This document shows, in pieces, positions 22,939-38,645 of a DNA stretch of 64,000 bases. How positions within the stretch are numbered: the stretch's first letter is position 1; each line of letters opens with the position of its first letter. The position numbers were made by a program, and so were the translations under genes. This DNA comes from Shinella daejeonensis (GTDB taxonomy: Bacteria > Pseudomonadota > Alphaproteobacteria > Rhizobiales > Rhizobiaceae): assembly GCF_024281235.1 (NCBI RefSeq), contig NZ_JAHWXY010000002.1, positions 372,001 to 436,000 of the forward strand, given 5' to 3'. Under the pieces are notes generated by a model. That model had not been told where the DNA came from. It ran no database searches and worked only from the letters and a program-made list of their open reading frames with translations.

Positions 22939-23385
22939 CTAGGAAATATGCTTGCGGGCAATCGCGAGCCTGGTTTCGCACCCGGACTTCGATACGGGGA
23001 TCGACGCAAGGCACCCGATCATATCGGGCGAGAATTTCGCGACCTTTCTGATCTCCGGATCAAAGCATAAATTAAGCGTTTCCACCGTGCACATGAGTTC
23101 CGCCCCGCTTTTAATGTTATGAAGCAGGTGAAAACGCTTGTCGTCATATGCGACAAGCTGCGTCTCGACTTCCACCGCCATCCCCAACCTGAGTTCCCGA
23201 AGATAACGGACATATGTCTCCGTCATCACAAACTCGAGCTTGTTATCGGAAGCGCCTTTAACCCGCTTCCAGATGGCGAGGGAGGCGTGATCGGCCACGC
23301 GTTGATATTCAAGAAAATTCACATGATCGAGTTCATCGATCCAACTTTGATCGACCCGGCCCGTCCAGCTCACCAGGGCGTCCAT
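22939..23385 (-). CDS. Hot-dog thioesterase, probable betainyl-CoA thioesterase
   Basis: 148 residues from ATG 23385, which overlaps the carnitine-dehydrogenase stop by one base (TGATG). It has the 4HBT hot-dog fold: an acidic HVNFLEYQRVADHA segment near residue 20 supplies the catalytic region, and YVRYLRELRLGMAVEVETQL the central helix and strand. In carnitine degraders a thioesterase of this family hydrolyses betainyl-CoA to glycine betaine and is encoded next to, or fused with, carnitine dehydrogenase. The function is inferred from that context and from the BKACE gene nearby. Confidence 0.85.
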   Translation of the reverse strand: MDALVSWTGRVDQSWIDELDHVNFLEYQRVADHASLAIWKRVKGASDNKLEFVMTETYVRYLRELRLGMAVEVETQLVAYDDKRFHLLHNIKSGAELMCTVETLNLCFDPEIRKVAKFSPDMIGCLASIPVSKSGCETRLAIARKHIS

Positions 23386-24335
23386 CACGAACGCCCCTTC
23401 CGCTGCCTCAGCGCTTCGAGAAGGACCCTGATTTCGGCAACACCATCGTTACGAAGTGCGATCAGCGGATCCTGACCTTCAGATCCCAGGGTCCTTGTGA
23501 CCTCATCGGCATAGGCGGCCATCAGCGCCTTATCCGGCGCGAAATCGGCAGGAGCCGTATAGCCGCTATCAAGCTCGTGAACGAGCAGATCCACAAATTC
23601 CTGATAGAGGGAGGGATCGCGCGCGCCCAGGTAGAACACGGAAGACGGACCCATCACGGCCCACCGTATAGCCGGTCCGGCGGCAACAGCGCGGTCGATT
23701 GCCTCGAGGTCCGCCACGCCCTGCGACAGCAGATACAGGATCTCACGGAAAACTGCGAATTGAATTCGGTTGCCAATGTAGCCGTCAATCTCGCGCTTGA
23801 GCTCGACAACCTCGCAACCTGTGCTGGTGTAGAACGCTGCCGCCATGGCAATGGCATCTCTGGCGACATCTCCTCCCGCCAGTTCGACCAGCGGCACCAG
23901 ATATGGAGGGTTGAAGGGATGGCCGATGATGATGCGCTCGCCATGACGCGCTTTCCGGCGCAGGTCCGCAGCCAGGAATCCTGATGAGCTCGACGCAATG
24001 ACGGCGTGGCGCGGGGCAAGACGATCGATTTCGGTGATAAGCCCAATTTTCGCGTCGACGTTCTCCGTGGCGCTTTCCTGCACGAAATCGCAGGCCGCCA
24101 ACGCTTCTTCCAGATTGGTCGTGAAGCTGACACGATCCGGAGACGCTCCGGCCGCAAGACCAAGCTTCTCCAATGAAGGCATCGCTTGCTCCAAAGAGGC
24201 CCTGAGATAGCCTTCGCGATCGGCAGACTGATCATGAACGATCACATCGAGGCCTGCGCGCATGAAATGCGCTGCCCAGCCGGAGCCGATAAGGCCGGCG
24301 CCCACGCAGGTAACTCTCGTAATCGGATGGTTCAT
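23385..24335 (-). CDS. L-carnitine 3-dehydrogenase
   Basis: Oxidises L-carnitine to 3-dehydrocarnitine with NAD. It has 316 residues of the 3-hydroxyacyl-CoA dehydrogenase fold: VGAGLIGSGWAAHFMRAGLDVIVHD is the N-terminal Rossmann motif with an Asp for NAD. QESATEN, ASSSSGF and GHPFNPPYLVPLVEL carry the catalytic Ser and His region, and the C-terminal helical domain starts near YIGNRIQ. The NPPYLVPLVE form is the one seen in carnitine dehydrogenases. GGAG precedes the ATG. Some rhizobia encode this enzyme fused to the thioesterase; here the two are separate but coupled. Confidence 0.9.
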   Translation of the reverse strand: MNHPITRVTCVGAGLIGSGWAAHFMRAGLDVIVHDQSADREGYLRASLEQAMPSLEKLGLAAGASPDRVSFTTNLEEALAACDFVQESATENVDAKIGLITEIDRLAPRHAVIASSSSGFLAADLRRKARHGERIIIGHPFNPPYLVPLVELAGGDVARDAIAMAAAFYTSTGCEVVELKREIDGYIGNRIQFAVFREILYLLSQGVADLEAIDRAVAAGPAIRWAVMGPSSVFYLGARDPSLYQEFVDLLVHELDSGYTAPADFAPDKALMAAYADEVTRTLGSEGQDPLIALRNDGVAEIRVLLEALRQRKGRS

Positions 24336-24451
24336 TGGGCGGCTCCAAAATTATTGCTGTGGCCAATCGTCGGCAGAGGTCCGGCCGGTGGCGCCTCTGC
24401 GACCTATGGGTACAACCGAATTTGTGTCATCATCCGTTCGTATTGCGCATC

Positions 24452-24470
24452 GATATGTGAATATGATAGA
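24452..24470. promoter_or_regulatory. Carnitine-island motif, site 4 (divergent CDH/LysR promoter)
   Basis: GATATGTGAATATGATAGA; its reverse complement contains ATTCACAT and aligns with the site at 32507 at about 16 of 21 positions. It ends 10 bases before the LysR start codon, so binding there could also repress lysR. Confidence 0.45.
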
Positions 24471-24479
24471 CGAGTCGCC

Positions 24480-25400
24480 ATGAAGCTCCCCCCTTTGCAG
24501 TCCCTTCGATCGTTCGAAGCCGTCGCGCGCCTTCTGAGCGTCACGCGCGCAGCGGACGATCTATGCGTTTCGCACTCGGCCGTTAGCCATCAAATCCGGA
24601 AGCTTGAGGAGTGGATCGGGATCCAGCTGGTCGAGCGCAACGGTCGAGGCATTCGCCTCACGGAAGCTGGCGAGCGGTACAAGTTCAAAGTCTGTGAAGC
24701 ATTCGAAAGCATTAGCGCCGAGACCGAGCTGCTTCGGAAAAGAAACGCGTCTCCCCTTGTCCGGGTGTCTTGCCTTCCGATGTTCGCAGTCGCCTGGCTG
24801 ATGCCGCAGATGCACGATTTCTGGGGCAAGTTTCCAGATGTGCAGGTCGCCATCCAATACGCCCGTGCGGCAAAAGTCCTGGATCCCGATACCGTGGATG
24901 TTGCGATCGAGCACGGAAATCCAAGTGATTTTCCTGACTTCGTAGCTATCCCGCTGTTGGACGGGACGACCGTCCCCGTCGCGTCCCCAGACTACCTGCA
25001 GCGCAACAATTATCAGTCACCAGCCGACCTGAAAGGCTTGTCTCTGCTTCACGACGCCGAACGTAAATTCTGGCATCTGTGGCTGAAAAAGATGTCCATC
25101 GACTTCGACCTGGATCTGGCCATGGCGGAGACGGGCCTCCTCTTCCCCGACGGCAATCTGACGTTGGCAGCCTGTCTTGCCGGAGAGGGCGTGGCCCTGC
25201 TACCGCGAAGCGTCGTCCTCTCTCAGTTGCGGGCAAAGACCCTGGTGTCGCTGTCCACTGTCGCGATAGAGGAAGAGAAATCATATCTCCTGCTGACCCC
25301 CAAAAACCGCCCGGTTACGAGAAGCGCCCTCCTCTTCGCGCACTGGATGCAGTCTCTTCCGGGAACGATAAAAATCGGAGTGCCAAAAGGGATCCAATGA
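24480..25400 (+). CDS. LysR-family transcriptional regulator (GcvA-like)
   Basis: 306 residues. The N-terminal helix-turn-helix is LQSLRSFEAVARLLSVTRAADDLCVSHSAVSHQIRKLEE split over residues 6-45, followed by the linker helix. The effector domain begins near VRVSCLPMFAVAWLMPQM. ALLPRSVV near the C-terminus is typical of GcvA/AmpR-type members. It lies between the carnitine dehydrogenase operon (divergent) and the BKACE gene (same strand), so it is the local candidate regulator of carnitine catabolism. Its effector is unknown; carnitine, gamma-butyrobetaine or a CoA ester are reasonable guesses. Confidence 0.92.
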   Translation: MKLPPLQSLRSFEAVARLLSVTRAADDLCVSHSAVSHQIRKLEEWIGIQLVERNGRGIRLTEAGERYKFKVCEAFESISAETELLRKRNASPLVRVSCLPMFAVAWLMPQMHDFWGKFPDVQVAIQYARAAKVLDPDTVDVAIEHGNPSDFPDFVAIPLLDGTTVPVASPDYLQRNNYQSPADLKGLSLLHDAERKFWHLWLKKMSIDFDLDLAMAETGLLFPDGNLTLAACLAGEGVALLPRSVVLSQLRAKTLVSLSTVAIEEEKSYLLLTPKNRPVTRSALLFAHWMQSLPGTIKIGVPKGIQ

Positions 25401-25593
25401 TCCCGCCTCCGCGAACGGTCTATCTGAGTCAACTCTCGCAGCCGCTTTTCACTTGTCGCGGCGCGCCTTTTCTCCGCTAGCTGGCATACGCTTTGAAACG
25501 GGATCGGCAAATCAGGCCGGATCGCGTCGACTGCTACTTCCGCCGGACTCCCGGGGAATTTCTGCGGAAAGCGCATGCCAACGATTGGAGACG

Positions 25594-26481
25594 ATGATGA
25601 ACCGCGAACCATTTATCACATGTGCCGTGACCGGCGGAGCCGACTTCGCCGGCAAAAGCCCGCATGTTCCCGTCACCCCTTTGGAAATAGCCGATAGCGC
25701 GCTCGAAGCGCATGAAGCGGGGGCGGCGATCGTGCATCTACACGTTCGCGACCCCGAAACCCGGATCGGGAGCAGGGATACAGGGCTTTACCGCGAGCTT
25801 GTAACCATCATTCGCGAACGCAACACGGATGTGATCATCAATCTGACCGGCGGGATGGGCGGCGAAATACTTTTTGGCTCCGCACAGGCGCCGTTGCCGC
25901 CCGCTCCGGGCACCGACTTCGTTGGTCCGGCCGAACGAATGGAGCATATTCTGGAGCTTCAGCCCGAGCTGGCGAGCCTGGACACCGGCTCTCTGAATTT
26001 CGACGATTCGCTTTATGCCACGACCCCAACATGGTTGCGGGAAATGGCATCAGCGTACAAGGGCGCAAAGGTTCTTCCCGAAATCGAAGTTTTTGAACTT
26101 GGCCATATCGAACTGGCAAAGCAGCTGATCAAGGAAGGCCACATCCCTCAGCCGGCACTTTTTCAATTGTGCCTCGGCATCAAATATGGCGCGCCCGCAA
26201 CGCCGGATGCAATGATCGCCATGCGAAATGCTCTTCCCGCCAACTCCAACTGGGCCGCATTCGGTCTCGGCGCCATGCAACTTCCGATGGCCGCCCAAGC
26301 CGTGCTGCTGGGCGGAAACATCAGAGTAGGGCTGGAAGATAATCTGTATCTCGAACGCGGCGTTCTCGCCACGAATGCGCAGCTCGTTGCCAAGGCGCGA
26401 CAGGTTGTCGAGGCTATGGGCGCGACAATTCGCACCGCCGCCGAGACCCGCACGCTACTCGGCCTTCAGCCGAGGGGATGA
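25594..26481 (+). CDS. BKACE (DUF849) beta-keto acid cleavage enzyme, probable 3-dehydrocarnitine cleavage
   Basis: Condenses a beta-keto acid with acetyl-CoA to give acetoacetate plus a new acyl-CoA; for 3-dehydrocarnitine the products are betainyl-CoA and acetoacetate. It has 295 residues from ATG 25594 or 25597, with TTGGAG upstream. The Zn-binding HLHVRDPET motif gives His48 and His50. KSPHVPVTPLEIADSALEAHEAGA is the conserved family N-terminus, and VLPEIEVFELGH with MPMAAQAVLLGG-like QLPMAAQAVLLGGNIRVG supplies the conserved Glu and the CoA-side loop. The context of dehydrogenase, thioesterase and CoA-transferase supports the dehydrocarnitine subclass. Confidence 0.9.
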   Translation: MMNREPFITCAVTGGADFAGKSPHVPVTPLEIADSALEAHEAGAAIVHLHVRDPETRIGSRDTGLYRELVTIIRERNTDVIINLTGGMGGEILFGSAQAPLPPAPGTDFVGPAERMEHILELQPELASLDTGSLNFDDSLYATTPTWLREMASAYKGAKVLPEIEVFELGHIELAKQLIKEGHIPQPALFQLCLGIKYGAPATPDAMIAMRNALPANSNWAAFGLGAMQLPMAAQAVLLGGNIRVGLEDNLYLERGVLATNAQLVAKARQVVEAMGATIRTAAETRTLLGLQPRG

Positions 26482-26585
26482 TTGTCCCCAAGGGCGCTCT
26501 CATGACGCGGGAGCGCCTTCTTCCCATGATGCGCCCTCAGGCTCTTACAGGATCGGCGGCACTGATCGATCATGTCGTGCCGGGT

Positions 26586-27383
26586 TCAGGCGATAAGGCT
26601 TCCGCCATCGACAGGAAGGGCAATACCGGTAATGGACCGTGCAGCTTCGCTGCACAGGAACAGGACGGCAGCGGCGACCTCATGCGTCTCAACGAAGCGG
26701 CGGGTCGGCATGTCGGTGACGAAATAGTTTCTTGCCGCTTCTTCGAACGAGTATTGGAGTTCCGCGGCTTTTTCTTCCACCTGCTTTGCGACCAATGGGG
26801 TCAGCACCCAGGCCGGGCAAACGGCGTTGCACGTAATGCCGAGCTGCGCCCCTTCAAGCGCCACCTCGCGGGTCAATCCCAAAATTCCGTGTTTCGTAGC
26901 GACATAAGCTGACTTTCGCGTTTCGGCGGTGAAGGCCAAGGTGGACGCCGTGTTGATGATGCGCCCCCAGCCGCGATCTCTCATCTGCGGCCAAACTGCT
27001 CTTATCGTAGCAAAGGCCGCCGTAAGATTTACGGCAATCAACCGGTTCCACTGCTCATCGGGAAATTCATCCACCGAAGCCATATGTTGAGCGCCGGCGT
27101 TGTTGACCAGGATGTCGACCCGGCCGAATTGAGCCGTTACCGCTTCTACAAGGCGGCCCGCCTCGTCGATAGCGGCAAGGTCGTGGCCGAAGTGGGCCAC
27201 CCGGCGCCCGGAGTCGGCAGCCAGGGCTTTTGTTACTTCATCGATTTCCTCAGCCGAACCAAATCCGTTTATCGCCACGTCAGCGCCATTCGCGACGAGC
27301 GCTCTTGCAATTGCCAGACCAATTCCGCTTGTCGATCCCGTTACAAGAGCGACTTTGTCTTTCAGAGGCACAGAGATGTCCAT
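26586..27383 (-). CDS. D-3-hydroxybutyrate dehydrogenase
   Basis: Interconverts 3-hydroxybutyrate and acetoacetate with NAD. It is a 265-residue classical SDR: TGSTSGIGLAIARAL, NNAGAQHMASVDEF, the NTASTLAF serine and YVATK as Y-x-x-x-K. CPAWVLTPLVAKQVEE is the loop characteristic of BdhA enzymes. In this island it can dispose of, or regenerate, the acetoacetate released by the BKACE reaction. It is convergent with the BKACE gene and divergent from the ABC transporter across a 300-bp region holding an operator-like palindrome. Confidence 0.88.
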   Translation of the reverse strand: MDISVPLKDKVALVTGSTSGIGLAIARALVANGADVAINGFGSAEEIDEVTKALAADSGRRVAHFGHDLAAIDEAGRLVEAVTAQFGRVDILVNNAGAQHMASVDEFPDEQWNRLIAVNLTAAFATIRAVWPQMRDRGWGRIINTASTLAFTAETRKSAYVATKHGILGLTREVALEGAQLGITCNAVCPAWVLTPLVAKQVEEKAAELQYSFEEAARNYFVTDMPTRRFVETHEVAAAVLFLCSEAARSITGIALPVDGGSLIA

Positions 27384-27577
27384 CTTTCGACCTTTCCGGT
27401 AATAGCGTCAGATTTCATCCGATACACACCGGCCGATATGCCGGGTACAAGTGAATCTACGCAGCCGACCGTGACTACAATTCACCTAACGAAGCGCAAT
27501 CATTGCGTGGCCCTCGCGCGTTCGCGATCCGCGTCGTTCGCACGCGGGCCGAGACGGGCGGGCCGCAATGCCTACAG

Positions 27578-27598
27578 TGTGAATCCGATTCACATGTT
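27578..27598. promoter_or_regulatory. Carnitine-island motif, site 1 (before the ABC transporter)
   Basis: TGTGAATC-C-GATTCACA is a perfect 8-1-8 inverted repeat, followed by TGTT. It matches the site before the acyl-CoA dehydrogenase (32510-32530) at 18 of 21 positions and lies about 90 bp upstream of the ATPase start. This is the best-formed of the four sites. Confidence 0.75.
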
Positions 27599-27687
27599 TG
27601 GCGTGAAAGATCAATTGATAGACGCCGAGCTGTCCGCGAACTTACTATGAGTGGAATTATAAAAACATCAGGACGAGAACAGTCCCG

Positions 27688-28494
27688 ATGGCTGAAAGGG
27701 AAACCTCCGTGGGCCCGAGTTTATCGCCTTCTCCTAAGACGCTGCTGGAAGTCCGAAACCTTCGCAAGTCGTTTGGATCGCTCGAAGTATTGAAGGGCGT
27801 GAACGTCAAGGCAGCCAAGGGTGACATCGTCACGCTGATCGGAAGCTCAGGTTCGGGCAAAAGCACGCTCATCCGGTGCATCAATTTTCTGGAAGAGCCA
27901 TCGGCTGGCGAAATCGTGCTCGACGGGCAGGTTTTCCCCGCGTTGGGGGAGCATCGCCGCACGCGCAAGCATAACGCTGACCTGATTGCTCTGCGCCGCA
28001 AGGTCGGGATGGTGTTTCAATCCTTCAATCTGTGGCCGCATCGCAACGCTCTTGAAAATGTGATGGAGGGTCCGGTTCAGGCCCTCGGAGTTCCCAGGAA
28101 GGACGCTCGCGAACGCGCTCATAGCTATCTTGAGAAGGTGGGCCTCGGCGATCGAACCGATCACTATCCATCACAACTCTCGGGCGGGCAGCAGCAGCGC
28201 GTAGCCATCGCTCGGGCTCTTGCGATGGAGCCTGAAATCCTGCTTTTCGACGAGCCGACATCGGCGCTGGATCCGGAACTGGTCGGCGAAGTCCTTCGCG
28301 TCATGCAGGGGTTAGCCTCCGAGGGAAGAACGATGATCATCGTGACCCACGAGATGCAGTTTGCGCTCGAGGTCTCGTCCGAGGTCGTCTTCCTCTCGAA
28401 GGGTAATATCGAAGAGAGAGGCGCTCCCTCGGATATTCTTAGATCGCCGAAGTCGGAGGCCCTGGCCTCATTCCTTCAGAGATACAGGTCCTAG
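27688..28494 (+). CDS. Polar amino-acid-type ABC transporter ATPase (HisP/GlnQ family)
   Basis: 268 residues. Walker A is GSSGSGKST, the Q-loop MVFQSFNLWPH, the signature LSGGQQQRVAIARA, Walker B ILLFDEPTSALD and the H-loop VTHEMQFA. These are exact hallmarks of the PAAT (HisP/GlnQ/ArtP) ATPases. The start at 27688 lacks a strong ribosome site. It is the first gene of a four-gene importer inside the carnitine island; a quaternary-ammonium ligand such as gamma-butyrobetaine or carnitine is inferred from context only. Confidence 0.93.
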   Translation: MAERETSVGPSLSPSPKTLLEVRNLRKSFGSLEVLKGVNVKAAKGDIVTLIGSSGSGKSTLIRCINFLEEPSAGEIVLDGQVFPALGEHRRTRKHNADLIALRRKVGMVFQSFNLWPHRNALENVMEGPVQALGVPRKDARERAHSYLEKVGLGDRTDHYPSQLSGGQQQRVAIARALAMEPEILLFDEPTSALDPELVGEVLRVMQGLASEGRTMIIVTHEMQFALEVSSEVVFLSKGNIEERGAPSDILRSPKSEALASFLQRYRS

Positions 28495-28496
28495 CG

Positions 28497-28592
28497 CAAT
28501 TCCGGTGAAATCAGGCTCACCGGGGTCGCTCTCATATAGTGCTTTTACCGCGTTATCCGACGCCGAAACGATCTCGCTCCGGCTGGAAATAC
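28497..28592. repeat. Dispersed palindromic repeat, copy (d), longest
   Basis: Starts CAATTCCGGTGAAATCAGGC, passes CATATAGTGCTTTTACCGCG and TTATCCGACG, and ends with CCGAAACGATCTCGCTCCGG and CTGGAAATACTCT. It sits inside the transporter operon between the ATPase and binding-protein genes, where its hairpin could set differential expression of the binding protein. Confidence 0.85.
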
Positions 28593-28625
28593 TCTCGTCA
28601 TCGCCAACCAAAAAGGGGAACTTCG

Positions 28626-29405
28626 ATGAAAATGATCAAGAATCTCACGGCTACGGTATTCGCAGCCGCGGTATCTTTTGTTTCGGTCACCTGCGCGCAG
28701 GCGGAGGACACGATCAAGATCGGGATCGACGCATCCTACAAGCCCTATGCCTACGTCGATCCGGATGGCCAGCTTGCGGGCTTCGAGATCGAGCTGATCG
28801 AGGCGGTGTGCTCCGAAATCAAAGCGAATTGCGAGCTGTCGAACGTTCCATGGGACGGGATTTTCACAGCCCTGGAGACAGGGACGATCGACATGATCGG
28901 CACGACCGTCACGATGTCGAAGGTGCGGCTGGAGAAAAACGATGCGTCCCGCATGATCTACAGGGTCGGTTTCGCATTCATGGTTCTCGAGGACGCCGAC
29001 ACGTCGAAGGGGATCGAAGGGCTCAAGGGACAGGCTATCGGAACGATCGTAGGCACACAGTCCTATTACGACTACATCAAGAGCGTACTGGGCGCCGATA
29101 CCGATATACGCGGCTACGACACGGCAGACGCTGCGGTGCTCGATCTGGACGCGGGACGTATCGCCGCGTTCCAGAGCGACAATCTTCAGCTTGAGCAATC
29201 CTATGTGAGCACCGGAAACTACAAGCTGGTAGGGCAGCCGACATTTGACCCCAAATATGTCGGCGACGGACGCGCCTGGTTCTTCAAGAAAGGTTCGCCG
29301 GAGCTTGTCGGCAAGATCAACAAGGGCCTGGATGCTGTCATTGCCGCAGGAAAGGTCGACGAACTTGGGATGAAGTATTTCAAGACGAAGCTCGTCACGA
29401 AGTAA
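28626..29405 (+). CDS. Polar amino-acid-type ABC substrate-binding protein
   Basis: 259 residues from ATG 28626 (MKMIKNLTATVFAAAVSF), with GGGGAA upstream; the longer open frame translates the repeat and is rejected. The Sec signal peptide ends at ...CAQA-ED, about residue 25. The mature domain is SBP family 3: IKIGIDASYKPYAYVDPDGQLAGFEIEL, DGIFTALETGTIDMIG and GTIVGTQSYYDYI are the family blocks. The usual arginine/aspartate ligand clamp for alpha-amino acids is not clearly preserved by eye. That would fit a betaine ligand but is not proof. Confidence 0.92.
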   Translation: MKMIKNLTATVFAAAVSFVSVTCAQAEDTIKIGIDASYKPYAYVDPDGQLAGFEIELIEAVCSEIKANCELSNVPWDGIFTALETGTIDMIGTTVTMSKVRLEKNDASRMIYRVGFAFMVLEDADTSKGIEGLKGQAIGTIVGTQSYYDYIKSVLGADTDIRGYDTADAAVLDLDAGRIAAFQSDNLQLEQSYVSTGNYKLVGQPTFDPKYVGDGRAWFFKKGSPELVGKINKGLDAVIAAGKVDELGMKYFKTKLVTK

Positions 29406-29444
29406 TGCGGCCCAATTTGAACCGAGGGAAGGGAAGATACCGTG

Positions 29445-30122
29445 ATGGAAGTCGTCGCGCCCTACTTTAGCTTCTGGTTGAAGGGCGCGGCTCTCACGCT
29501 CGGGCTGTCTGCGGCGTCCTTTCCCATTAGCGCCTTTCTCGGGTTGATCGTTGCTTTTGCAGCGGTCTCCCCGTCTCGTCCGGCTGCTCTTGCGGCAGCC
29601 ATGTATATCAATCTGTTTCGCGGCCTGCCGGAAATCATTGTGATTTTCCTGATATTCTACGGCTCCAACATCGTCCTCACGATGCTGGCCCAGCCGTTTG
29701 GCATTCAAATCGGCGGGACGAATCCGGCTATCGCCGCGTTGATCGCGTTATCGATCCAGTTTGGTTCTTATGCAGCCGTAATCTTTAAAGACTGGATGGG
29801 TGTGTTTCCCAGAGGCTACACCGAAGCCGGTCTTGCGATCGGGATGACGCGCCTGCAAATCCGCCGACGTATTGTCGTGCCGCTCCTGCTCAGGTCGGCC
29901 ACACCTGCGCTCGGCAACCTCTTTCTCGTCATGCTGAAGATTTCCGCGCTCGCATCGTTGATAGGGGTCGAGGAACTCAGCCGTACAACCAGCATCATCG
30001 CAGGCTCCACGCGCGAGCCGCTCGTATGTTATTTGATCGCCGCAGGAATGTACCTCGTCATCTCGGCGGTTTCCGGTTTCGTTCAACACCGGTTTGAAGT
30101 CGCGATGGAAAGGTCGATCTGA
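29445..30122 (+). CDS. Polar amino-acid-type ABC permease (HisQ type)
   Basis: 225 residues from ATG 29445; a GTG directly before it is an alternative. GGGAAGGGAAG lies upstream. Membrane helices begin with FWLKGAALTLGLSAASF. The FRGLPEIIVIFLIFYG segment and the EAGLAIGMTRLQIRRRIVVP EAA loop are diagnostic of His/Glu/Gln/Arg permeases. The gene overlaps the next permease by one base (TGATG), so they form a coupled heterodimer. Confidence 0.9.
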   Translation: MEVVAPYFSFWLKGAALTLGLSAASFPISAFLGLIVAFAAVSPSRPAALAAAMYINLFRGLPEIIVIFLIFYGSNIVLTMLAQPFGIQIGGTNPAIAALIALSIQFGSYAAVIFKDWMGVFPRGYTEAGLAIGMTRLQIRRRIVVPLLLRSATPALGNLFLVMLKISALASLIGVEELSRTTSIIAGSTREPLVCYLIAAGMYLVISAVSGFVQHRFEVAMERSI

Positions 30123-30832
30123 TGCTCAATTTCGCGATCCTTGAAACAAGCGCTTTCTGGTGGGCGGTCTTGAACGGATTGGGAGTGACCGCGGCACTCA
30201 CAGTGCTGAGCATGATCTTTGGCTTCATCACCGGCGGCATCCTCGCGTCCATGAATTTTTATGGCGGGCCCGGGGTCAGAATGGGTGCGAAGATCTACAT
30301 CTTCGTTTTCCGCGGCGTGCCACTTCTGATCCTCCTGTACCTATTCTACTACGGGCTTCCGCGGGTGACCTGGCTGCGAGGAAGCTATTTTTGGGACCTG
30401 ATCCTTACGTCCCCGTTCCGAACGGCCGTATTCGTTCTTACGATCAATAACGCGGCCTATCTCGGCGAAATGATCCGTGGCGGCTTGAGGATGGTTCCTG
30501 CCGGTTTGCTCGAAGCCGCAGCCGCTGTAGGAATGACGAAAACACGCATATTCTTCAGGGTCCACGCCCCGCTGGCGCTTCGCTCGATCCTGGGGAACCT
30601 CGGCAGCGAAACCATTGCTGTTGTAAAGGCGTCGGCGATCACGAGCGTCATTACGGTCCGCGACCTCATGGGCGGACCGACTGTTCTTGGTAAGGTTTAT
30701 CTCGATCCGTTGACGCCGCTCCTTGTGGTCGGCCTGATCTACGTTGTCATCGTGCAGCTTATAGATCTCGTGACGAGGATGGTCGGAAGACGCTTATCTC
30801 ATCCGGGAACCGTGCAGGCACATCACGTATAA
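30122..30832 (+). CDS. Polar amino-acid-type ABC permease (HisM type)
   Basis: 236 residues. The first helix is FWWAVLNGLGVTAALTVLS, then VFRGVPLLILLYLFYYGLP, and the EAA loop LEAAAAVGMTKTRIFFRVHAP faces the ATPase. A strong intrinsic terminator follows at 30850, closing the four-gene transport unit. Confidence 0.92.
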   Translation: MLNFAILETSAFWWAVLNGLGVTAALTVLSMIFGFITGGILASMNFYGGPGVRMGAKIYIFVFRGVPLLILLYLFYYGLPRVTWLRGSYFWDLILTSPFRTAVFVLTINNAAYLGEMIRGGLRMVPAGLLEAAAAVGMTKTRIFFRVHAPLALRSILGNLGSETIAVVKASAITSVITVRDLMGGPTVLGKVYLDPLTPLLVVGLIYVVIVQLIDLVTRMVGRRLSHPGTVQAHHV

Positions 30833-30849
30833 TCGGCAATTGCCATTTG

Positions 30850-30878
30850 AAAGGCGCGCCTCTCTCCGCGCGCCTTTT
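30850..30878 (+). terminator. Rho-independent terminator after the transporter operon
   Basis: AAAGGCGCGC and GCGCGCCTTT form a perfect 10-bp stem with an 8-base loop, ending in a short T-run. It lies 17 bases after the HisM-type permease stop. Confidence 0.88.
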
Positions 30879-30916
30879 GGCTGCCAGGTGTCGCATCCCG
30901 GCAAAATCCAGGATGA

Positions 30917-30937
30917 CATGTGTCTGAAATTCACATG
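30917..30937. promoter_or_regulatory. Carnitine-island motif, site 3 (before the CoA-transferase)
   Basis: CATGTGTCTGAAATTCACATG has outer arms CATGTG/CACATG around the spacer and keeps the TGTG-N6-ATTCACATG frame of site 1 (about 14 of 21 identical). It lies 100 bp upstream of the subunit A start and after the terminator. Confidence 0.6.
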
Positions 30938-31035
30938 CCGCAACCGAAACGCCACCATTTCGTAACCGGCAGCCTCGTTAGCATCGGGCCAATCAACGGC
31001 CTGCATCAATTCGCACGTAAAAGGGGATCGCTTCA

Positions 31036-31734
31036 GTGAACAAGGTATTTGAACGGCCCGAGGAAGCGCTACAGGGGCTCTTGTTCGACGGCATGTTTAT
31101 TGCTGCGGGCGGGTTTGGTCTTTGCGGCATTCCGGAGCTCATGATCGACGCCATTCAAGCAGCCGGCACAAAGGACCTGACGATTGCTTCGAACAATTGC
31201 GGCGCCGACGATTTCGGGCTCGGCGTGCTGCTGAAGACGAAACAGATCAGGAAGATGATCTCCTCCTATGTCGGCGAGAACGCCGAGTTCATGCGGCAAT
31301 ATCTCAGTGGAGAACTGGAACTGGAGTTCAACCCTCAGGGAACGCTGGCGGAGCGCATGCGAGCGGGTGGCGCCGGCATCGCCGGCTTTTATACGAAGAC
31401 CGGGGTTGGCACGGTCGTGGCCGAGGGCAAGGAAACGAAGGTCTTCAACGGCGAGACCTTCGTTCTCGAGACAGGCATCGTCGCCGACTTGTCGATCGTC
31501 AAGGCGTGGAAGGCCGACACCTCCGGCAACCTCGTCTTCCGCAAGACGGCCCGCAACTTCAATCCGCCGGCTGCGACCTGCGGCAAGATCTGCATCGCCG
31601 AGGTCGAAGAGATCGTGCCCGTCGGCAGCCTGGATCCCGATCATATCCACGTGCCGGGGATCTACGTGCATCGTCTGATCCAGGGGCGACATGAGAAACG
31701 GATCGAACAGCGCACAACGCGCGCGGCAGCTTGA
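31036..31734 (+). CDS. 3-oxoacid CoA-transferase subunit A (DhcA/AtoD/ScoA type)
   Basis: 232 residues starting GTG 31036, with AAGGGGA upstream. [21 protein letters not shown] is the family CoA-binding loop, and [15 protein letters not shown] and [14 protein letters not shown] follow. With subunit B it moves CoA between succinyl-CoA or acetyl-CoA and acetoacetate. In Pseudomonas carnitine catabolism the homologous pair is named dhcAB. Here it would activate the acetoacetate released by the BKACE step for thiolysis. Confidence 0.92.
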
Positions 31735-31754
31735 AAGGCAGGGGGACAGGAGAC

Positions 31755-32384
31755 ATGGCCTGGGACAGAAACCAGATGGCGGCCCGTGCGGCGCGCGAAC
31801 TCGAGGACGGCACCTACGTCAATCTCGGCATCGGCATTCCGACGCTCGTCGCCAACTATATTCCGGAAGGCGTTCACGTGACGCTGCAATCGGAGAACGG
31901 CCTCCTCGGCATCGGTCCCTTCCCGACCGAAGATCAGATCGACGCCGATCTCATCAATGCCGGCAAGCAGACGGTGACGGCGCTCCCGCATTCGGCCTTC
32001 TTTGATTCCGCCCAGAGCTTCGCAATGATCCGCGGCGGCAAGATCGCCATGGCGATCCTCGGCGCCATGGAGGTGGCCGAGAATGGCGATCTCGCCAACT
32101 GGATGATCCCCGGAAAGCTTGTCAAGGGCATGGGCGGCGCGATGGACCTCGTGGCAGGCGTCAAGCGAGTGGTGGTCGTGATGGACCACACCAACAAGGC
32201 GGGAGAATCCAAGGTCCTGAGAGCCTGCACCCTGCCGCTCACAGGAAAGAGCGTTGTCGATCGGATCATCACCAATCTTGGTGTGCTGGACGTCGTCGAT
32301 GGCGGACTGAGGCTGGTCGAGCTTGCCGAAGGCGTCACCGACGGCGAAATCCGCCGCGCCACCGAGGCGACGATCATCAACTGA
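31755..32384 (+). CDS. 3-oxoacid CoA-transferase subunit B
   Basis: 209 residues from ATG 31755 ([19 protein letters not shown]), with AGGAG 6 bases upstream; an in-frame ATG at 31731 overlaps subunit A and is less likely. The [10 protein letters not shown] block contains the catalytic glutamate (E of S-E-N-G). [23 protein letters not shown] and [20 protein letters not shown] complete the family signature. It is translated together with subunit A as a heterotetramer. Confidence 0.93.
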
Positions 32385-32506
32385 TCCGACGGCGTCTCGC
32401 TAATGCTTCCGAGGCCGCAGGAGCCTGGAAATTTGTCGCGAGGTCGCACCGCCGCAGATCGCAAGGCGATGCTGATTTACACGACAGACCTTAGTCATAC
32501 CGGAAA

Positions 32507-32529
32507 ACATGTCGATCCTATTCACATGT
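32507..32529. promoter_or_regulatory. Carnitine-island motif, site 2 (before the acyl-CoA dehydrogenases)
   Basis: The outer arms ACATGT/ACATGT flank CGATCCTATTC. It is 18 of 21 identical to site 1 over 32510-32530 and lies about 70 bp before the acyl-CoA dehydrogenase start. Confidence 0.7.
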
Positions 32530-32597
32530 TCTCCGGCAATAATAAAGTGACGATTGATGTGCTGCACTCTAGCTTTAGGTGTAGCGGAGGGCGGAAA

Positions 32598-33794
32598 ATG
32601 GAACGGCTTGACAGCATCTTGAACTCACATGACGCCATTGCGTTTCGCGATCGCGTGAAACGGCTTCTCGTCGACCATTTGCCGAAACACATCCGGATCC
32701 AGGTCGAGCAGGAAAAAATGGATCTTTCCAAGGAAGATCAGAGAACCTGGCATAAAATACTGCGAGCGCACGGGCTGGCCTGCCCGTCATGGCCCGTCGA
32801 ATACGGCGGTCCCGGGCTTGCAGATCACGAACTCTACATACTGGAGCGGGAGTTTGCGCTCGGAGGCGCGCCCCGTCCGATGATCTACGGGGTGACGATG
32901 CTGGGCCCGGCCCTCATCGCCCATGGAACGCCGGAGCAGCAGCAGCGATTCCTTCCAGGTATTCTGGAAGGGGACACCTTCTGGTGCCAGGGCTTCTCCG
33001 AAACCAACGCCGGCTCGGACCTTGCCAGTCTGAAGTGCGCCGTTCGGCGTGAGGGTGACGAATATGTCATAAACGGTCACAAGATGTGGACCAGCGAGGG
33101 ACACATCGCCGATTGGATGTTCGGGATTTTCCGCACGGATTCGTCCGGAAGGAAGCAACAGGGCATCACCTTCCTGCTTCTCGATATGCGCAGCCCTGGT
33201 GTCAGCGTTCAGCCCATCCAGACCTTCGACGGCACCGGGATCGAAATCAACCAGGTATTCTTTGACAACGTAAGGGTTCCTGTCGATCAGCGCATCGGCG
33301 ATGAAGGCGCGGGATGGGATATCGCCAAGTCGGTGCTTACCGCCGAAAGATTTGGCAACGCCGAAGTCTCGCGATCCATCGCATCGCTGGAGCGCTTGAA
33401 GGATTACTGCCGCGCGACCAGCCTTGACGGAAGGCCGCTGATTCAAGACCCGATCATCGCCAGACGTCTTGTCGAACTCGAAATTTCACTTCAGGCCGTT
33501 GAACAGACCGAGCTTCGGTTCCTTTTTCATGCCGGCGACGAACTCGGGGCAGAGGCGGCGCTGCTCAAGCTGCGAGGAACGGAGGTGCAGAACGCGATCC
33601 TCGCGGCTGCCACCGACCTTCGGGGGCCATCGGCATCGCTCCTGCTGGATGAGGACCATCCGGGCGCATCGGCTGAATACACCAGTGCGAGCCACGCGTT
33701 GAAGGCTCATATGAACTATCGGAAAACGATGATCTACGGCGGCTCGAGTGAAGTGCAGCGTAACATTCTTGCCAAGGGGGCCTTGGGTCTATGA
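32598..33794 (+). CDS. Acyl-CoA dehydrogenase, probable gamma-butyrobetainyl-CoA dehydrogenase subunit
   Basis: 398 residues from ATG 32598, with GGAGGG 8 bases upstream; the open frame from 32403 runs through the operator and is rejected. It has the acyl-CoA dehydrogenase fold: WPVEYGGPGL near residue 65, CQGFSETNAGSDLASLKC in the middle beta-domain with the FAD-contacting Thr/Ser region, NGHKMWTSEGHIADW, and the C-terminal IYGGSSEVQRNILAKGALG. It overlaps the second dehydrogenase by 4 bases (ATGA). The pair likely forms a heteromeric enzyme that introduces the double bond giving crotonobetainyl-CoA. Confidence 0.86.
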   Translation: MERLDSILNSHDAIAFRDRVKRLLVDHLPKHIRIQVEQEKMDLSKEDQRTWHKILRAHGLACPSWPVEYGGPGLADHELYILEREFALGGAPRPMIYGVTMLGPALIAHGTPEQQQRFLPGILEGDTFWCQGFSETNAGSDLASLKCAVRREGDEYVINGHKMWTSEGHIADWMFGIFRTDSSGRKQQGITFLLLDMRSPGVSVQPIQTFDGTGIEINQVFFDNVRVPVDQRIGDEGAGWDIAKSVLTAERFGNAEVSRSIASLERLKDYCRATSLDGRPLIQDPIIARRLVELEISLQAVEQTELRFLFHAGDELGAEAALLKLRGTEVQNAILAAATDLRGPSASLLLDEDHPGASAEYTSASHALKAHMNYRKTMIYGGSSEVQRNILAKGALGL

Positions 33795-34906
33795 TCAAGT
33801 CTTTGGGATTGAATGAAACCGAGCGCTTGGTACGCGATTCCGTTACCGACTGCGTATCGGATATCGCGGGTGCCGGAGGCACCGCACGGGCGCAGGGACA
33901 CGGCGCCTTGTCCTCGCTCGCCAAGCTGGGGGTCCTGGCAGCGCCTCTATCCGAAAATCTGGGCGGGATGGGTGAAGGCCTCGGCACGGCGATGCTGGTT
34001 CTTGAGCCGCTTGGTCGCAAAGCCCTTGTCACCCCTTACGTTGAAAAGATCTGCGTGCCAGCCGCCGTGGCGGAGTTTTATCCGGGACACGAAGACCTAC
34101 GCAAACATCTTGAATCAGCGGCAAATGCCGGCCCCGGCGCGGTCATGGCCTGGGTCGAGGCGGGGCGGGGCTGGAATAGAATCCCCAAATCGACGACCGC
34201 CAGGCGGGAGGCGGACGCCTGGCGTCTCGAAGGCAGAAAGAGCCTCGTGCGCTGGGGAGATCAGGCCGCCGCTTTCATTGTGACTTCAAAAGTCGATGAT
34301 GAGCCAGCTCTATTTCTGGTAGCTGCCGATTTGGAGGGCGTGGAGATAAAAAGCTATCCGTCAGGCGACGGACGGGTGATGAGCGACATCGTCTTCCACA
34401 ATGTCCAGCTTCCGAACAACAGCCGGATGGATGACGGAAACGCCCGGCAGGTTATCGAATATGCCCTGGATGCCGGTTCAGCGCTATCGCTCGCCGAAGC
34501 TGTCGGCCTGATGGACGGGTCGCTCGAAATGACGGTCGACTACCTGAAAACTCGCGAGCAATTCGGTACGGCCCTGTCGAAAATGCAAGTTCTACAACAT
34601 CGGCTTGTCGAGATGTATGCATCGACAGAATGCGCATGGTCGCTGGCCCATGAGGCGGCCTCCAGTCTCGCCAGGGACGTTCCGCCAAAGTCTCGGGCGT
34701 GCGCCGTGTCTCGGGCCAAAGCTTATATTGGCCGGATGGGGCGTTTCGTGGGCCAGGAGGCACTCCAGATGCATGGCGCCATCGGGATGACGGAGGAATA
34801 CCCGCTCGGCCGGTATCTTCAGCGGTTGACCGCGATTGACCTCGATTACGGAGACAGTGACTGGCACCTGAGCCGTCTTTCTAACGTCATGCAGGAAATT
34901 GACTGA
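33791..34906 (+). CDS. Acyl-CoA dehydrogenase, second subunit
   Basis: 371 residues. LGVLAAPLSENLGGMGEG near residue 50 is the helical N-domain block. YLKTREQFGTALSKMQVLQHRLVEMY and the C-terminal GAIGMTEEYPLGRYLQRL identify the class that partners another dehydrogenase of similar size. The canonical E-T-N-A-G-S-D beta-domain motif is absent here, so this protein is probably not active alone. It overlaps its neighbours on both sides (ATGA upstream, TGATG downstream). Confidence 0.84.
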   Translation: MIKSLGLNETERLVRDSVTDCVSDIAGAGGTARAQGHGALSSLAKLGVLAAPLSENLGGMGEGLGTAMLVLEPLGRKALVTPYVEKICVPAAVAEFYPGHEDLRKHLESAANAGPGAVMAWVEAGRGWNRIPKSTTARREADAWRLEGRKSLVRWGDQAAAFIVTSKVDDEPALFLVAADLEGVEIKSYPSGDGRVMSDIVFHNVQLPNNSRMDDGNARQVIEYALDAGSALSLAEAVGLMDGSLEMTVDYLKTREQFGTALSKMQVLQHRLVEMYASTECAWSLAHEAASSLARDVPPKSRACAVSRAKAYIGRMGRFVGQEALQMHGAIGMTEEYPLGRYLQRLTAIDLDYGDSDWHLSRLSNVMQEID

Positions 34907-36963
34907 TGAATCGCGATTTGACGCCTCTATTTTCTCCGTCTGCCGTCGCAATTTTCGGGGCGAGTGGCCGGGAAGGCCGCCCTGGCTACGAAATCGTCAA
35001 GGCGTTGCAGTCTTTTCCGAAGGGGCCGCGTCTGTATCCGGTGACGCCCGTCTACCAGGACATTGACGGGATCAAATGCTACGCCAGCATCAACGACATT
35101 CCCGAAAAAATCGACCTTGGGGTTATCGCAAGCGGCGCCGCCCGGGTCATCGATGACGCCCGAAGCGCGATTTCCGCCGGCGCTCGCGCACTTCATGTCG
35201 TCGGTGATCTCGCACAGGAAGACAGTACGCGCCTTGCGGCAATCGCAAAGGATGCCGGCGCGGTCCTGCTTGGTCCGAACTCCATCGGTTACGTCGACTT
35301 TACGGGCGGCATCGCTTCAACCTGGGCAATGCCCCCGGAAGATCACCGCGCGGCAGGAAATATCGCACTCATACTGCAATCGGGCGCGCTATTTTCTTAC
35401 GCTAACGCCATCGATCCGCGTCTTACGTTCAGCATGACCGTTCATCTCGGCCGGGAACTGGACGTGAACCTGGTCGACATGATTTACCGTGCGCTCTCGG
35501 ATGCGCAAACGCGTGTGATAGGCGTTTATCTCGAAAGCATAGGCGACAGCCGGCTTCTTGGGGAGGCGCTCGCTGCGGCGGCGTCTCAAGGCGTCCCGGT
35601 TGTCGTACTCGCTCCGGGAAGGACAGCTGAAGCCGCAGAAGCGATTGCGACGCATGCAGGTCGAATGGCGGGCGGCAAAGCGCCGCTGGAAGCCATCGTC
35701 CGTCGCTACCGATTGATCGAGTGCATTACGCTCGATCAGTTTTGGTGCACGCTTCATGTACTGTCCACCGGAATAAAGTTCGATCGTGGCGGCGTCGCGG
35801 TCATCACCGATTCAGGGGCGCAGCGGGCCATGGCGCTGGACGCGGCCAGCCGGTCCAGGCTGCCGCTTGCGAGGTTCTCGAAAGAAACTGAAGATGCGTT
35901 GCGGAACATTCTGGCGCCCGAGTTGTCGACATCCAATCCCATCGACATCTGGGCCGGCGAGAACGATGTTTCGGCTCATGTCGCAAACTGCCTTTCGACT
36001 GCGATGGCCGATGACGACGTGACGATCGGAGCGTTCGTTACCGAATTCGGAGTGCCGGCCGCCGACACCTTCTCTACAAGGATTGCGGAGGGTGTCGCCA
36101 GGCTGTCCAATGGTTCAAAGCCGGTTTTCGCAATCGGTTTTTCGACCCGCCATTTCGTTTCGGACCGCATCATGACCCTGGAGCGCGCAGGCGTTCCTGT
36201 CCTTGATGGGCTTGAGACCTCATTTACGGCTCTTGCGCAGCTTCATCAGTACGGCTCCGGGCAGGACTACCCCGCTGCGGCTCGACTTGAAGATACCTTG
36301 AAGCCCAGCATCGAAGCCGCGCTTGAGAAGATGTCGGAGAACGATGAGACCAGTACACTGGATGTCATCGAGGCGGCGGGGATACCCACGGTCGCCCGCA
36401 AGACAGTCCAGAGTCTGGAGGCTGCCTTACACGCCGCACATGCGATAGGCTATCCCGTTGTCATGAAGACCGCAGAAGCCGTCGCTCACAAGACCGAGGT
36501 CGCGGGCGTAGTCCTGGATATTACGGACGACGCCAAGCTGGAAGCTGCATACCGCGACCTGGAGAGCCGTATCGGGCCGAGAATCCTGATTGCCTCGATG
36601 CTGAAAGGCGGCGTCGAACTGGCTCTTGGTGCAGTCATCGATCCCATAGCAGGCCCCATGGTGATGGTCGCCGCGGGCGGCGTCAAAGCAGAGATTCTGG
36701 CTGACCGGCAGTTCGCTCTGGCTCCAGTCAGCGAGGAAGAAGCGGCCGATATGCTTCGATCGCTGCAAATAAGTCCCACCCTTGATCCATACAGGGGCAA
36801 ACCGGGGATAAACAGACAGGCGATCGCCAAAGCGATTGCGAGCTTGTCGCGGCTTATCGGCGAGTATCCCCAGACCATTGCCGCGATCGACATCAATCCG
36901 ATCATCGCGACACCAGAGGGTGTCGTAGCCGTAGATGCGCTGATTTCACGCTCTTTGAAGTAG
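34906..36963 (+). CDS. NDP-forming acyl-CoA synthetase, probable gamma-butyrobetaine:CoA ligase
   Basis: 685 residues. The N-terminal CoA-binding domain begins SPSAVAIFGASGREGRPGYEI, followed by two succinyl-CoA-synthetase-like flavodoxin domains with LLGPNSIGYVDF. The active-site histidine is His250 in IATHAGRMAGG. The C-terminal third is an ATP-grasp domain (PVVMKTAEAVAHKTEVAGVVL, then FALAPVSEEEA and IDINPIIATPEGVVAVDA). In the aerobic gamma-butyrobetaine route the substrate is first activated to its CoA ester; this is the only ligase in the island. It starts on the TGATG of the dehydrogenase gene. Confidence 0.85.
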   Translation: MNRDLTPLFSPSAVAIFGASGREGRPGYEIVKALQSFPKGPRLYPVTPVYQDIDGIKCYASINDIPEKIDLGVIASGAARVIDDARSAISAGARALHVVGDLAQEDSTRLAAIAKDAGAVLLGPNSIGYVDFTGGIASTWAMPPEDHRAAGNIALILQSGALFSYANAIDPRLTFSMTVHLGRELDVNLVDMIYRALSDAQTRVIGVYLESIGDSRLLGEALAAAASQGVPVVVLAPGRTAEAAEAIATHAGRMAGGKAPLEAIVRRYRLIECITLDQFWCTLHVLSTGIKFDRGGVAVITDSGAQRAMALDAASRSRLPLARFSKETEDALRNILAPELSTSNPIDIWAGENDVSAHVANCLSTAMADDDVTIGAFVTEFGVPAADTFSTRIAEGVARLSNGSKPVFAIGFSTRHFVSDRIMTLERAGVPVLDGLETSFTALAQLHQYGSGQDYPAAARLEDTLKPSIEAALEKMSENDETSTLDVIEAAGIPTVARKTVQSLEAALHAAHAIGYPVVMKTAEAVAHKTEVAGVVLDITDDAKLEAAYRDLESRIGPRILIASMLKGGVELALGAVIDPIAGPMVMVAAGGVKAEILADRQFALAPVSEEEAADMLRSLQISPTLDPYRGKPGINRQAIAKAIASLSRLIGEYPQTIAAIDINPIIATPEGVVAVDALISRSLK

Positions 36964-37003
36964 CGCGGCCCGGCCGTCAGACCGTTCAATCAAGGAAGTT
37001 TTC

Positions 37004-37819
37004 ATGTCAGAGCCAATCATCAAAACCAGTCGGATCGGGAACGTTCTTGAGATTGTTCTCAACAGACCACCCGTCAACGCCATCAACCGCGAGATGAGCA
37101 GGGCGATCCATGCGGCTCTCAGGTCGCTTCAAGAAGACCCCGAACTCAGTGTCGGCGTCATCATCGGATCGGGCGAGCGGATCTTCTCGGCAGGTTGGGA
37201 TCTCAAGGATGTCGCGGCGGCTGGTTTTGACCCCACGTCTGACGCAGACAACGAAACGGGCCACGGGGCCGGCGGGTTTGCAGGCATTACCGAGTATCAC
37301 GGTTTGCTGAAACCCGTGGTCGCGGCGATCAACGGTGTCGCCGTGGGCGGCGGTTTCGAAATGGCTCTCGCGTGCGATGTGATCATCGCTGCTGAACATG
37401 CTTACTTCGAACTGCCGGAGATGCAGCGGGGGTTCCTTGCGGATAGCGGGGCGATCCAGCGGCTTCCGAAACGCATCCCCTACAACGTTGCGAAAGAAAT
37501 GCTACTGACAGGCCGGCGGATGCCTGCCCGGGAAGCGCAGGAATGGGGCTTGGTAGCCTCCGTTCACGAAAGCGGCGAACTCCGCCAGGCCGCGCTCGAT
37601 CTAGCCACGAGCATCGCCAAGGGGGCTCCTTTGGCGCTTCAGGCGATGAAAGAGGTTTTAACGCATATTGAGACGCTTTCCACCGCCGACGCCATGGCGT
37701 TGACAAAGCCAGGCAGGAGCGGCCTTGAGATGTACGAGCGCATGTCGCATTCGGAAGACTTTATCGAAGGCCCCCGCGCCTTCGTGGAAAAGCGTGCTCC
37801 TGTCTGGAAAGGCAAATAA
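37004..37819 (+). CDS. Carnitinyl-CoA dehydratase (CaiD-like crotonase)
   Basis: Hydrates crotonobetainyl-CoA to L-carnitinyl-CoA. It has 271 residues of the crotonase fold. FSAGWDLKDVAAAG is the first oxyanion region, as in CaiD, and GGFAGITEYHGLLKP follows. GGGFEMALACDV supplies the first catalytic Glu, FELPEMQRGFLADSG the second, and the C-terminus ...IEGPRAFVEKRAPVWKGK is almost the CaiD ending. That specific similarity, rather than generic crotonase features, is why I name the reaction. AGGAAG lies before the ATG. It is the last gene of the ACAD-ACAD-ligase unit. Confidence 0.9.
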   Translation: MSEPIIKTSRIGNVLEIVLNRPPVNAINREMSRAIHAALRSLQEDPELSVGVIIGSGERIFSAGWDLKDVAAAGFDPTSDADNETGHGAGGFAGITEYHGLLKPVVAAINGVAVGGGFEMALACDVIIAAEHAYFELPEMQRGFLADSGAIQRLPKRIPYNVAKEMLLTGRRMPAREAQEWGLVASVHESGELRQAALDLATSIAKGAPLALQAMKEVLTHIETLSTADAMALTKPGRSGLEMYERMSHSEDFIEGPRAFVEKRAPVWKGK

Positions 37820-38198: not shown

Positions 38199-38230
38199 CA
38201 TTCCTCCTCACCGCACACTGACGGGATAAC

Positions 38231-38611: not shown

Positions 38612-38645
38612 TAGTCCCCGCAATTCCTTTCCTGACTTTTTCAGG

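Follow-up and report, generated by a model that had tools for sequence, protein, structure and literature searches.

A rare 15 kb gene island in Shinella daejeonensis as a candidate second edition of the carnitine-type pathway

Does a 15 kb group of catabolic genes in Shinella daejeonensis encode the aerobic route from gamma-butyrobetaine via L-carnitine to glycine betaine, or a similar pathway for another compound? The Sinorhizobium meliloti version of this route, said to have been described by Bazire et al. in the Journal of Bacteriology in 2019, reportedly uses five enzymes for seven steps. The window, i.e., the whole stretch of 64,000 nucleotides analyzed here (contig NZ_JAHWXY010000002.1, positions 372,001 to 436,000), carries 15 intact genes within 15 kb at positions 22939-37819, among them all those named in the original prediction, which had read them as the complete Sinorhizobium-type gamma-butyrobetaine island. 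We favor a different reading, to which we give about an even chance of being correct: the island would be a second edition of the carnitine-type pathway, rare and probably mobile, non-orthologous to the known one and serving a zwitterion that resembles carnitine but is not gamma-butyrobetaine.

Searching the own genome with the beta-hydroxy-acid dehydrogenase of the 3HCDH family (carnitine-dehydrogenase-like, hereafter CDH) and the beta-keto acid cleavage enzyme (BKACE) of the island led to an S. meliloti-type carnitine cluster on contig C11 at about 619.6-627.2 kb (loci L012:13560-20000 and L013:1-1244). This cluster comprises a GlxA-type regulator, a BKACE, a fused dehydrogenase-thioesterase of 495 aa, one acyl-CoA dehydrogenase, a ligase and a hydratase. 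Its proteins are 72-93% identical to those of S. meliloti Ak57, in the same gene order, whereas the window proteins share 23-52% identity with the same Ak57 genes and are neither collinear nor orthologous with them; the proposed identity with the Sinorhizobium island was thus not borne out, its counterpart being the C11 cluster. The Ak57 record in the plasmid collection contains the same cluster, with genes annotated as carnitine 3-dehydrogenase and caiD; in this record the ligase (L073:12970-15232) has no listed gene and lies in two pieces in different frames, and it may be broken or misread. The accessible part of PMC12482172 describes the S. meliloti dehydrogenase SM2011_c01638 as a dual-function enzyme which oxidizes carnitine and converts betainyl-CoA to glycine betaine. 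Once the C11 cluster had been found and matched to S. meliloti, a carnitine label was no longer accepted as proof of a carnitine identity, and annotation by likeness would give the island just this label while overlooking the carnitine cluster already present in the genome. The normal substrate of the island is more likely an analogue than gamma-butyrobetaine or L-carnitine, which are presumably served by the C11 cluster.

The CDH (23385..24335, minus strand) stands apart from the carnitine enzymes. It scored 216 bits against the Pseudomonas-type L-carnitine dehydrogenase model NF005471 (cut-off 414) and 204 bits against the fused carnitine 3-dehydrogenase/thioesterase model NF005716 (cut-off 592), while the positive controls passed, namely the fused proteins of C11 and S. 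meliloti with 892 and 946 bits and the Pseudomonas enzyme from P. alcaligenes with 661 bits (cut-off 414). As its best model, NF004783 for 3-hydroxyacyl-CoA dehydrogenase, was missed as well (228 bits, cut-off 347), no curated family claims the CDH, and the label of carnitine dehydrogenase it had been given is weaker than stated. In a tree of 31 rows, rooted by midpoint only and flagged by the program for long branches, 15 window-type rows grouped in one clade (100/100; branch length 1.65), apart from a clade of 12 carnitine rows (99/97). Left out of this tree and of that of the BKACEs were L032, a duplicate of the uncultured Rhizobium G619, the further Pseudomonas loci L034, L036 and L038, the split frame of L041, and the fragmentary BKACE of L027. 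Position 189 of the CDH is Asn in all 14 window-type rows compared and Asp in eight of nine carnitine rows; the one exception, Bradyrhizobium L048, itself falls below the cut-off. Asn also occurs in three more distant relatives. The thioesterase (4HBT_2; 22939..23388, minus strand, GTG start) overlaps the CDH by 4 nt, matches PDB 2hlj with an E value of 6.5e-10 and reaches 46.9 bits against the thioesterase half of the fused model NF005716, being a protein separate from the CDH. The CDH query returned nothing useful from viral contigs.

Also set apart are the two acyl-CoA dehydrogenase subunits, ACAD-L (32598..33794, plus strand; start chosen from resemblance to the Ensifer adhaerens orthologue in L017) and ACAD-S (33791..34906, plus strand), which overlap by 4 nt and are 24-26% identical to the single acyl-CoA dehydrogenase of S. 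meliloti. Their best NCBIfam models are those of the pimeloyl-CoA dehydrogenase subunits PimC and PimD, at 329 of 624 and 230 of 653 bits, i.e., under the cut-offs. The coupled run continues with the nucleoside diphosphate (NDP)-forming acyl-CoA ligase (34906..36963, plus strand; 1 nt overlap with ACAD-S) and, after a gap of 40 nt, the CaiD-like enoyl-CoA hydratase (37004..37819, plus strand). His250 of the ligase, predicted as its active-site residue, was confirmed within the motif THAGRMAGG and is kept in the Ensifer orthologue. In the hydratase Glu119 and Glu139, which we take to be the catalytic pair, are both conserved, and the carnitinyl-CoA-dehydratase-like C-terminus noted before was borne out by the likeness of its end, FVEKRAPVWKGK, to that of the C11 CaiD, FAEKRDPVWKGR.

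The BKACE (25597..26481, plus strand) belongs to its family with 311 bits against the Pfam model (cut-off 24.8), and the HLHVR motif reported for it is present as VHLHVRD. The window type forms its own six-row clade in the BKACE tree (100/100), with no resolved branching order relative to carnitine and other BKACE clades. According to the accessible part of PMC12871164, canonical BKACEs have a Tyr at the site where the window BKACE has the Phe of its EVF motif. This Phe was rejected as a substrate discriminator, since the C11 and Pseudomonas BKACEs have Phe too, and so was the Asp of the TG.xD segment, which occurs in the carnitine BKACEs except L048 and also in R. giardinii, R. gallicum and S. 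garamanticum. Two further neighbourhoods were seen in the own genome, one with a CDH-like gene, a BKACE and SDRs at 33-41% identity to the window proteins (contig C22, 541872-545721; L014:9669-13728), the other with a fourth BKACE, 44% identical, adjoining two matches resembling ATPases of ATP-binding cassette (ABC) transporters (C22, 153302-154186; L015:8303-9190).

The island brings its own importer, consisting of an ATPase (27688..28494), a binding protein (28626..29405) and permeases A (29442..30122) and B (30122..30832), all on the plus strand. The importer ATPase, both permeases and the CoA-transferase subunits were named by blast likeness to annotated genes, and the Pfam and NCBIfam scans covered the other ten proteins, which fell into 4HBT_2, 3HCDH, BKACE, SDR, SBP_bac_3, the acyl-CoA dehydrogenases, CoA_binding/Succ_CoA_lig/ATP-grasp for the ligase, ECH_1 and LysR. 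The ATPase is 65% identical to an S. terangae gene annotated as amino acid ABC transporter ATPase. The binding protein (SBP_bac_3, 105 bits) aligns with an arginine-binding protein (3tql) and keeps its Arg and Asp, here Arg101 and Asp185, which are invariant among five sequences and presumably bind the carboxylate and amino groups of an amino acid; together with two permeases and an ATPase this defines a PAAT-type importer. Since the binding protein of S. terangae is only about 33% identical to that of the window, the importer is exchangeable. The predicted structure of the binding protein, with a mean predicted local distance difference test score of 65 and much of the second domain below 50, was not used.

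Taken together, the families suggest a route of activation, desaturation, hydration, hydrolysis, oxidation and BKACE cleavage to acetoacetate, and this chemistry very likely holds. The gene content, the families, the co-inheritance, the separate C11 cluster and the clade separation are shown directly by the comparisons, while each single reaction, the substrate and what the SDR does are inferred. A zwitterionic acid, either R-CH2-CH2-COOH or the beta-hydroxy form of it, would enter through the PAAT-type importer, and the ligase would form the CoA ester of the imported acid, which the two-subunit dehydrogenase may convert to the 2-enoyl-CoA and the hydratase to the 3-hydroxyacyl-CoA. The thioesterase would release the beta-hydroxy acid and the CDH oxidize it to the beta-keto acid, from which BKACE with acetyl-CoA would yield acetoacetate and an acyl-CoA two carbons shorter, the latter putatively hydrolyzed by the thioesterase. 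Acetoacetate could then be activated by the 3-oxoacid CoA-transferase (subunit A, 31036..31734; subunit B, 31755..32384; plus strand). The variable group R is probably cationic and carnitine-like. The predicted order of reactions and a single self-contained route from import to acetoacetate are supported by the family assignments and by the co-inheritance of the set; of the predicted disposal of acetoacetate, the CoA-transferase step is plausible, but the island contains no thiolase gene, whereas in S. terangae a thiolase gene follows the CoA-transferase.

Co-inheritance was seen in two other replicons, in which orthologues of the island genes occur together, more than by chance, as one conserved unit. 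Plasmid p-2 of E. adhaerens (L017) carries the full set of 15 at 59-92% identity, split into two blocks about 9 kb apart, and contig C25 of the uncultured Rhizobium G619 (the contig of L032) carries 13 of the 15 at 55-81% identity, with CDH and thioesterase positioned between ligase and hydratase; the CoA-transferase had no match within the 39.5 kb compared. The same membership in different orders in the window, E. adhaerens and G619 argues for one functional unit. A rival possibility, that a fatty-acid-type CoA operon and an independent beta-keto acid operon are neighbours by accident and form no single pathway, would account for the separated blocks in E. adhaerens and for downstream blocks that occur elsewhere without the ligase; it conflicts with the position of CDH and thioesterase in G619 and with the finding that all three islands with the ligase block also have the downstream block, and we hold it to be very improbable. 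In E. adhaerens, a frame resembling electron transfer flavoprotein-ubiquinone oxidoreductase by eye was seen before the first block (L017:12702-14354), and a CoA-transferase family III protein of 765 aa and a second ABC importer between the blocks (L017:23458-31114).

The island is rare and probably horizontally moved. Its ligase was matched at E 1e-200 in two of 394 family genomes, one being the own genome, and in none of the seven other same-genus genomes among those listed; the CDH at E 1e-90 was matched in one of 397 order genomes, again the own genome. A CDH alignment run against 84,980 species genomes gave 22 loci, of which 12, from ten genomes, showed at least 59% identity. The fused carnitine 3-dehydrogenase model, by comparison, matched 124 of 199 family genomes at E 1e-100, 89 of them above the cut-off. 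Moreover, the guanine plus cytosine (GC) content of the island is 0.583 against 0.624 and 0.640 in the left and right flanks, and third-position GC is 0.63-0.69 in 12 of the 15 genes, with 0.74 in the binding protein and 0.77-0.81 in the CoA-transferase, compared to 0.73-0.80 in the four flanking genes measured.

Several observations weigh against the favored reading, and most of them would fit instead a redundant second pathway from gamma-butyrobetaine or L-carnitine to glycine betaine, recruited from other subfamilies, e.g., for another niche or regulation. The best NCBIfam model of the hydratase is that of crotonobetainyl-CoA hydratase (272 bits, cut-off 500, next model 231), and its nearest own-genome paralogue is the C11 CaiD (45%). 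Because S. meliloti CaiD itself misses this cut-off (310 of 500), the low score of the hydratase was dropped as an argument against carnitine. Likewise, the only other own-genome match of the ligase at E 1e-10 is the C11 ligase (27%), the BKACE is about 52-53% identical to the carnitine BKACEs of C11, S. meliloti and Pseudomonas, and the two halves of the fused dehydrogenase-thioesterase have separate homologues that adjoin in the window. In Bradyrhizobium sp. 132 carnitine-type CaiD-like and ligase genes are found 7-10 kb from a window-type CDH and thioesterase; the CaiD-like gene is 71% identical to that of C11 in one locus and split into two pieces (68%) in the other, and the ligase (52%) is present in one locus. 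This neighbourhood is the best evidence for a carnitine-like substrate. In S. garamanticum pieces of carnitine-type BKACE and CDH are found about 5 kb from a window-type CDH. Furthermore, G619 carries the island, and the fused carnitine dehydrogenase was unmatched in this metagenome-assembled genome (96% complete) at E 1e-100, so that replacement is possible there. On the other side, the own genome already has an S. meliloti-type cluster, the CDH belongs to a separate clade with the Asp/Asn difference at 189, and the importer is of amino-acid type, whereas P. aeruginosa takes up carnitine via CaiX with CbcWV (accessible part of PMC5806209). We regard the redundant carnitine route as a serious but tentative alternative. 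The check by phylogenetic grouping that had been suggested at the outset came out divided, with the acyl-CoA dehydrogenase pair nearest to pimeloyl-CoA dehydrogenase and the CDH outside the carnitine clade, and the hydratase nearest to crotonobetainyl-CoA hydratase. Use of D-carnitine via the ligase-hydratase block was set aside on stereochemical grounds.

A further point against the favored reading is that the SDR (26586..27383, minus strand) passes two curated models of 3-hydroxybutyrate dehydrogenase, NF009093 (295.7 bits, cut-off 258) and TIGR01963 (307.1 bits, cut-off 307.05). To this extent its predicted label holds; it fails the third model, NF009931 (240 bits, cut-off 340), and in alignment with 1wmb, which we assume to be of P. 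fragi type, and 3v2h it has Leu in place of their active-site His, position 144 of 1wmb, which presumably binds the substrate carboxylate. This His was absent from all 13 SDRs aligned from related loci and is kept in the higher-scoring 3-hydroxybutyrate dehydrogenase paralogue of the own genome (C11 at 813 kb, 382 bits), which counts for the favored reading. The SDR may act on the other enantiomer of the beta-hydroxy acid or on 3-hydroxybutyrate as annotated; our guess is a D-type dehydrogenase for the beta-hydroxy acid. The accessible part of PMC2131755, on D-carnitine dehydrogenase, gives no sequence.

The distribution of the downstream half, i.e., CDH, thioesterase, BKACE, SDR, importer and CoA-transferase, leads to another alternative, namely that this half degrades a symbiosis-linked gamma-amino-beta-hydroxy acid or similar zwitterion, to which the ligase-hydratase half was added and feeds the saturated acid. 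Sinorhizobium sp. 8-89 possesses CoA-transferase, importer, SDR, BKACE, LysR and CDH at 80-99% identity and the thioesterase at 60%, and R. mongolense has the downstream set at 79-87%, with CoA-transferase A partial, B unmatched and the contig ending in the CDH. The ligase at E 1e-60 had no match in either genome (G771, G772), hence their downstream module cannot start from a saturated acid by a window-type ligase; their carnitine cluster is elsewhere in the genome, the fused carnitine dehydrogenase scoring 931 and 918 bits, over the cut-off. This combination counts for the favored reading as well. Among ten genomes, the ligase was matched in four at E 1e-60 (66% for the G619 orthologue, 30-33% for the others) and the fused dehydrogenase in eight at E 1e-100, four above the cut-off. 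The plasmids of S. terangae, R. gallicum and S. garamanticum are absent from the ten plasmid records that match the ligase at E 1e-60, and in S. terangae no ligase-block genes were found in the 41 kb compared. These three are also the plasmids with nifH among the four carrying a CDH at least 59% identical; overall, nifH was above the cut-off in ten of 15 genomes or records and below it in one more. In S. terangae an ectoine synthase gene (ectC) and a LysR gene follow the thioesterase, with ATP-grasp and nonribosomal peptide synthetase/polyketide synthase (NRPS/PKS) genes further out, and in S. garamanticum ectC and PKS genes lie ahead of the catabolic ones; ectA and ectB are not listed in these two stretches, whose gene tables are incomplete. 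Against this alternative, the own genome gave no nifH match at E 1e-60, and its sole ectC match, at 44% identity, lies a long way from the island. Moreover, ectC occurs at 81-100% on all four plasmids with the CDH, but of the 27 plasmid records with an ectC of this kind these four alone have the CDH, making the link one-sided. We consider a symbiosis-linked substrate unlikely. More speculative still, and quite improbable in our view, is that the neighbouring NRPS/PKS and lone EctC enzymes of legume symbionts make or modify a rhizopine-like zwitterion, a beta-hydroxy-gamma-amino acid, which the island and its symbiotic-plasmid relatives would degrade by means of CDH, SDR and BKACE; the window organism would then be a consumer that also uses the saturated precursor via the ligase block. 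If true, the lone ectC genes would gain a pathway. Orphan EctC proteins are described as having a function not yet clear or unresolved in the accessible parts of PMC6344544 and PMC5924519, and the presence of the downstream half near lone ectC on nifH-bearing plasmids therefore offers a concrete place to test both questions, the substrate of the module and the role of EctC.

Lone-looking ectC genes near a window-type CDH module were seen at L066:21661-23062, L021:17500-18906, L017:14556-15936, L022:17762-18581 and L071:8297-8683, beside a LysR gene of the same type in L066, L021, L017 and L022 (a fragment in L022); the window island has no ectC. NRPS, PKS and ATP-grasp genes, not all kinds in each, lie close to the module at L066:23725-39841 (S. 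terangae), L024:1165-9720 (R. mongolense) and L071:692-8249 (S. garamanticum). Sinorhizobium sp. 8-89 has a second window-type CDH copy (L022:15469-16422; 76% identical), with a tyrosine recombinase-like frame, judged by eye, between the copies.

The island also encodes a GcvA-like LysR regulator (24480..25400, plus strand), divergent from the CDH and 75-88% identical across five related loci. A second LysR gene and a flavin adenine dinucleotide (FAD) oxidoreductase gene at 38777-40971 were placed outside the island because of their higher third-position GC (0.77 and 0.80) and because the FAD gene was unmatched at E 1e-8 in the Ensifer and G619 loci; there, the second LysR gave just cross-matches of 25-29% at positions of the first type. 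The gap 3' of the hydratase (37820-38776) contains short frames, one of which, on the minus strand, appears tautomerase-like by eye.

No prior description of the island was found in the literature searched on carnitine and BKACE in general, most subscription journals lying outside that search. With its complete BKACE pathway, import and activation included, and its two different dehydrogenases, the island is a good target in the search for new rhizobial nutrients of a betaine- or amino-acid-like kind. Among known systems, the modules of S. terangae pCB3126_2, R. gallicum pRGM101a and S. garamanticum hold CDH, SDR, BKACE, a PAAT-type importer and CoA-transferase together, as does the window, and the first two have an annotated thioesterase; unlike the window, these plasmid modules contain a thiolase. 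Those of R. gallicum and S. garamanticum add an M20 peptidase, a hydrolase of gamma-glutamyl-gamma-aminobutyrate, RidA and an FAD oxidase, and their BKACE is of another clade. The four added genes, which precede a related CDH/BKACE/PAAT cluster at L028:979-4594, L031:3-3189, L067:5061-8583 and L068:5078-8649, perhaps free the module substrate from an amide. The carnitine operon of P. aeruginosa, given as caiX-cdhCAB-hocS in the accessible part of PMC5806209, resembles the island in that BKACE adjoins a 3HCDH dehydrogenase in the Pseudomonas loci compared, but its CDH is 34-38% identical and of another clade, and its importer differs. PimC/PimD, the two-subunit pimeloyl-CoA dehydrogenase behind the best models of the ACAD pair, stands in another gene context. 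The S. meliloti pathway shares the logic of CoA ligase, acyl-CoA dehydrogenase, CaiD-type hydratase, thioesterase, beta-hydroxy-acid dehydrogenase and BKACE; it has a one-subunit acyl-CoA dehydrogenase, a GlxA-type regulator and a fused dehydrogenase-thioesterase, whereas the window has a two-subunit acyl-CoA dehydrogenase, a LysR regulator and unfused enzymes, together with an amino-acid-type importer and a CoA-transferase of its own.

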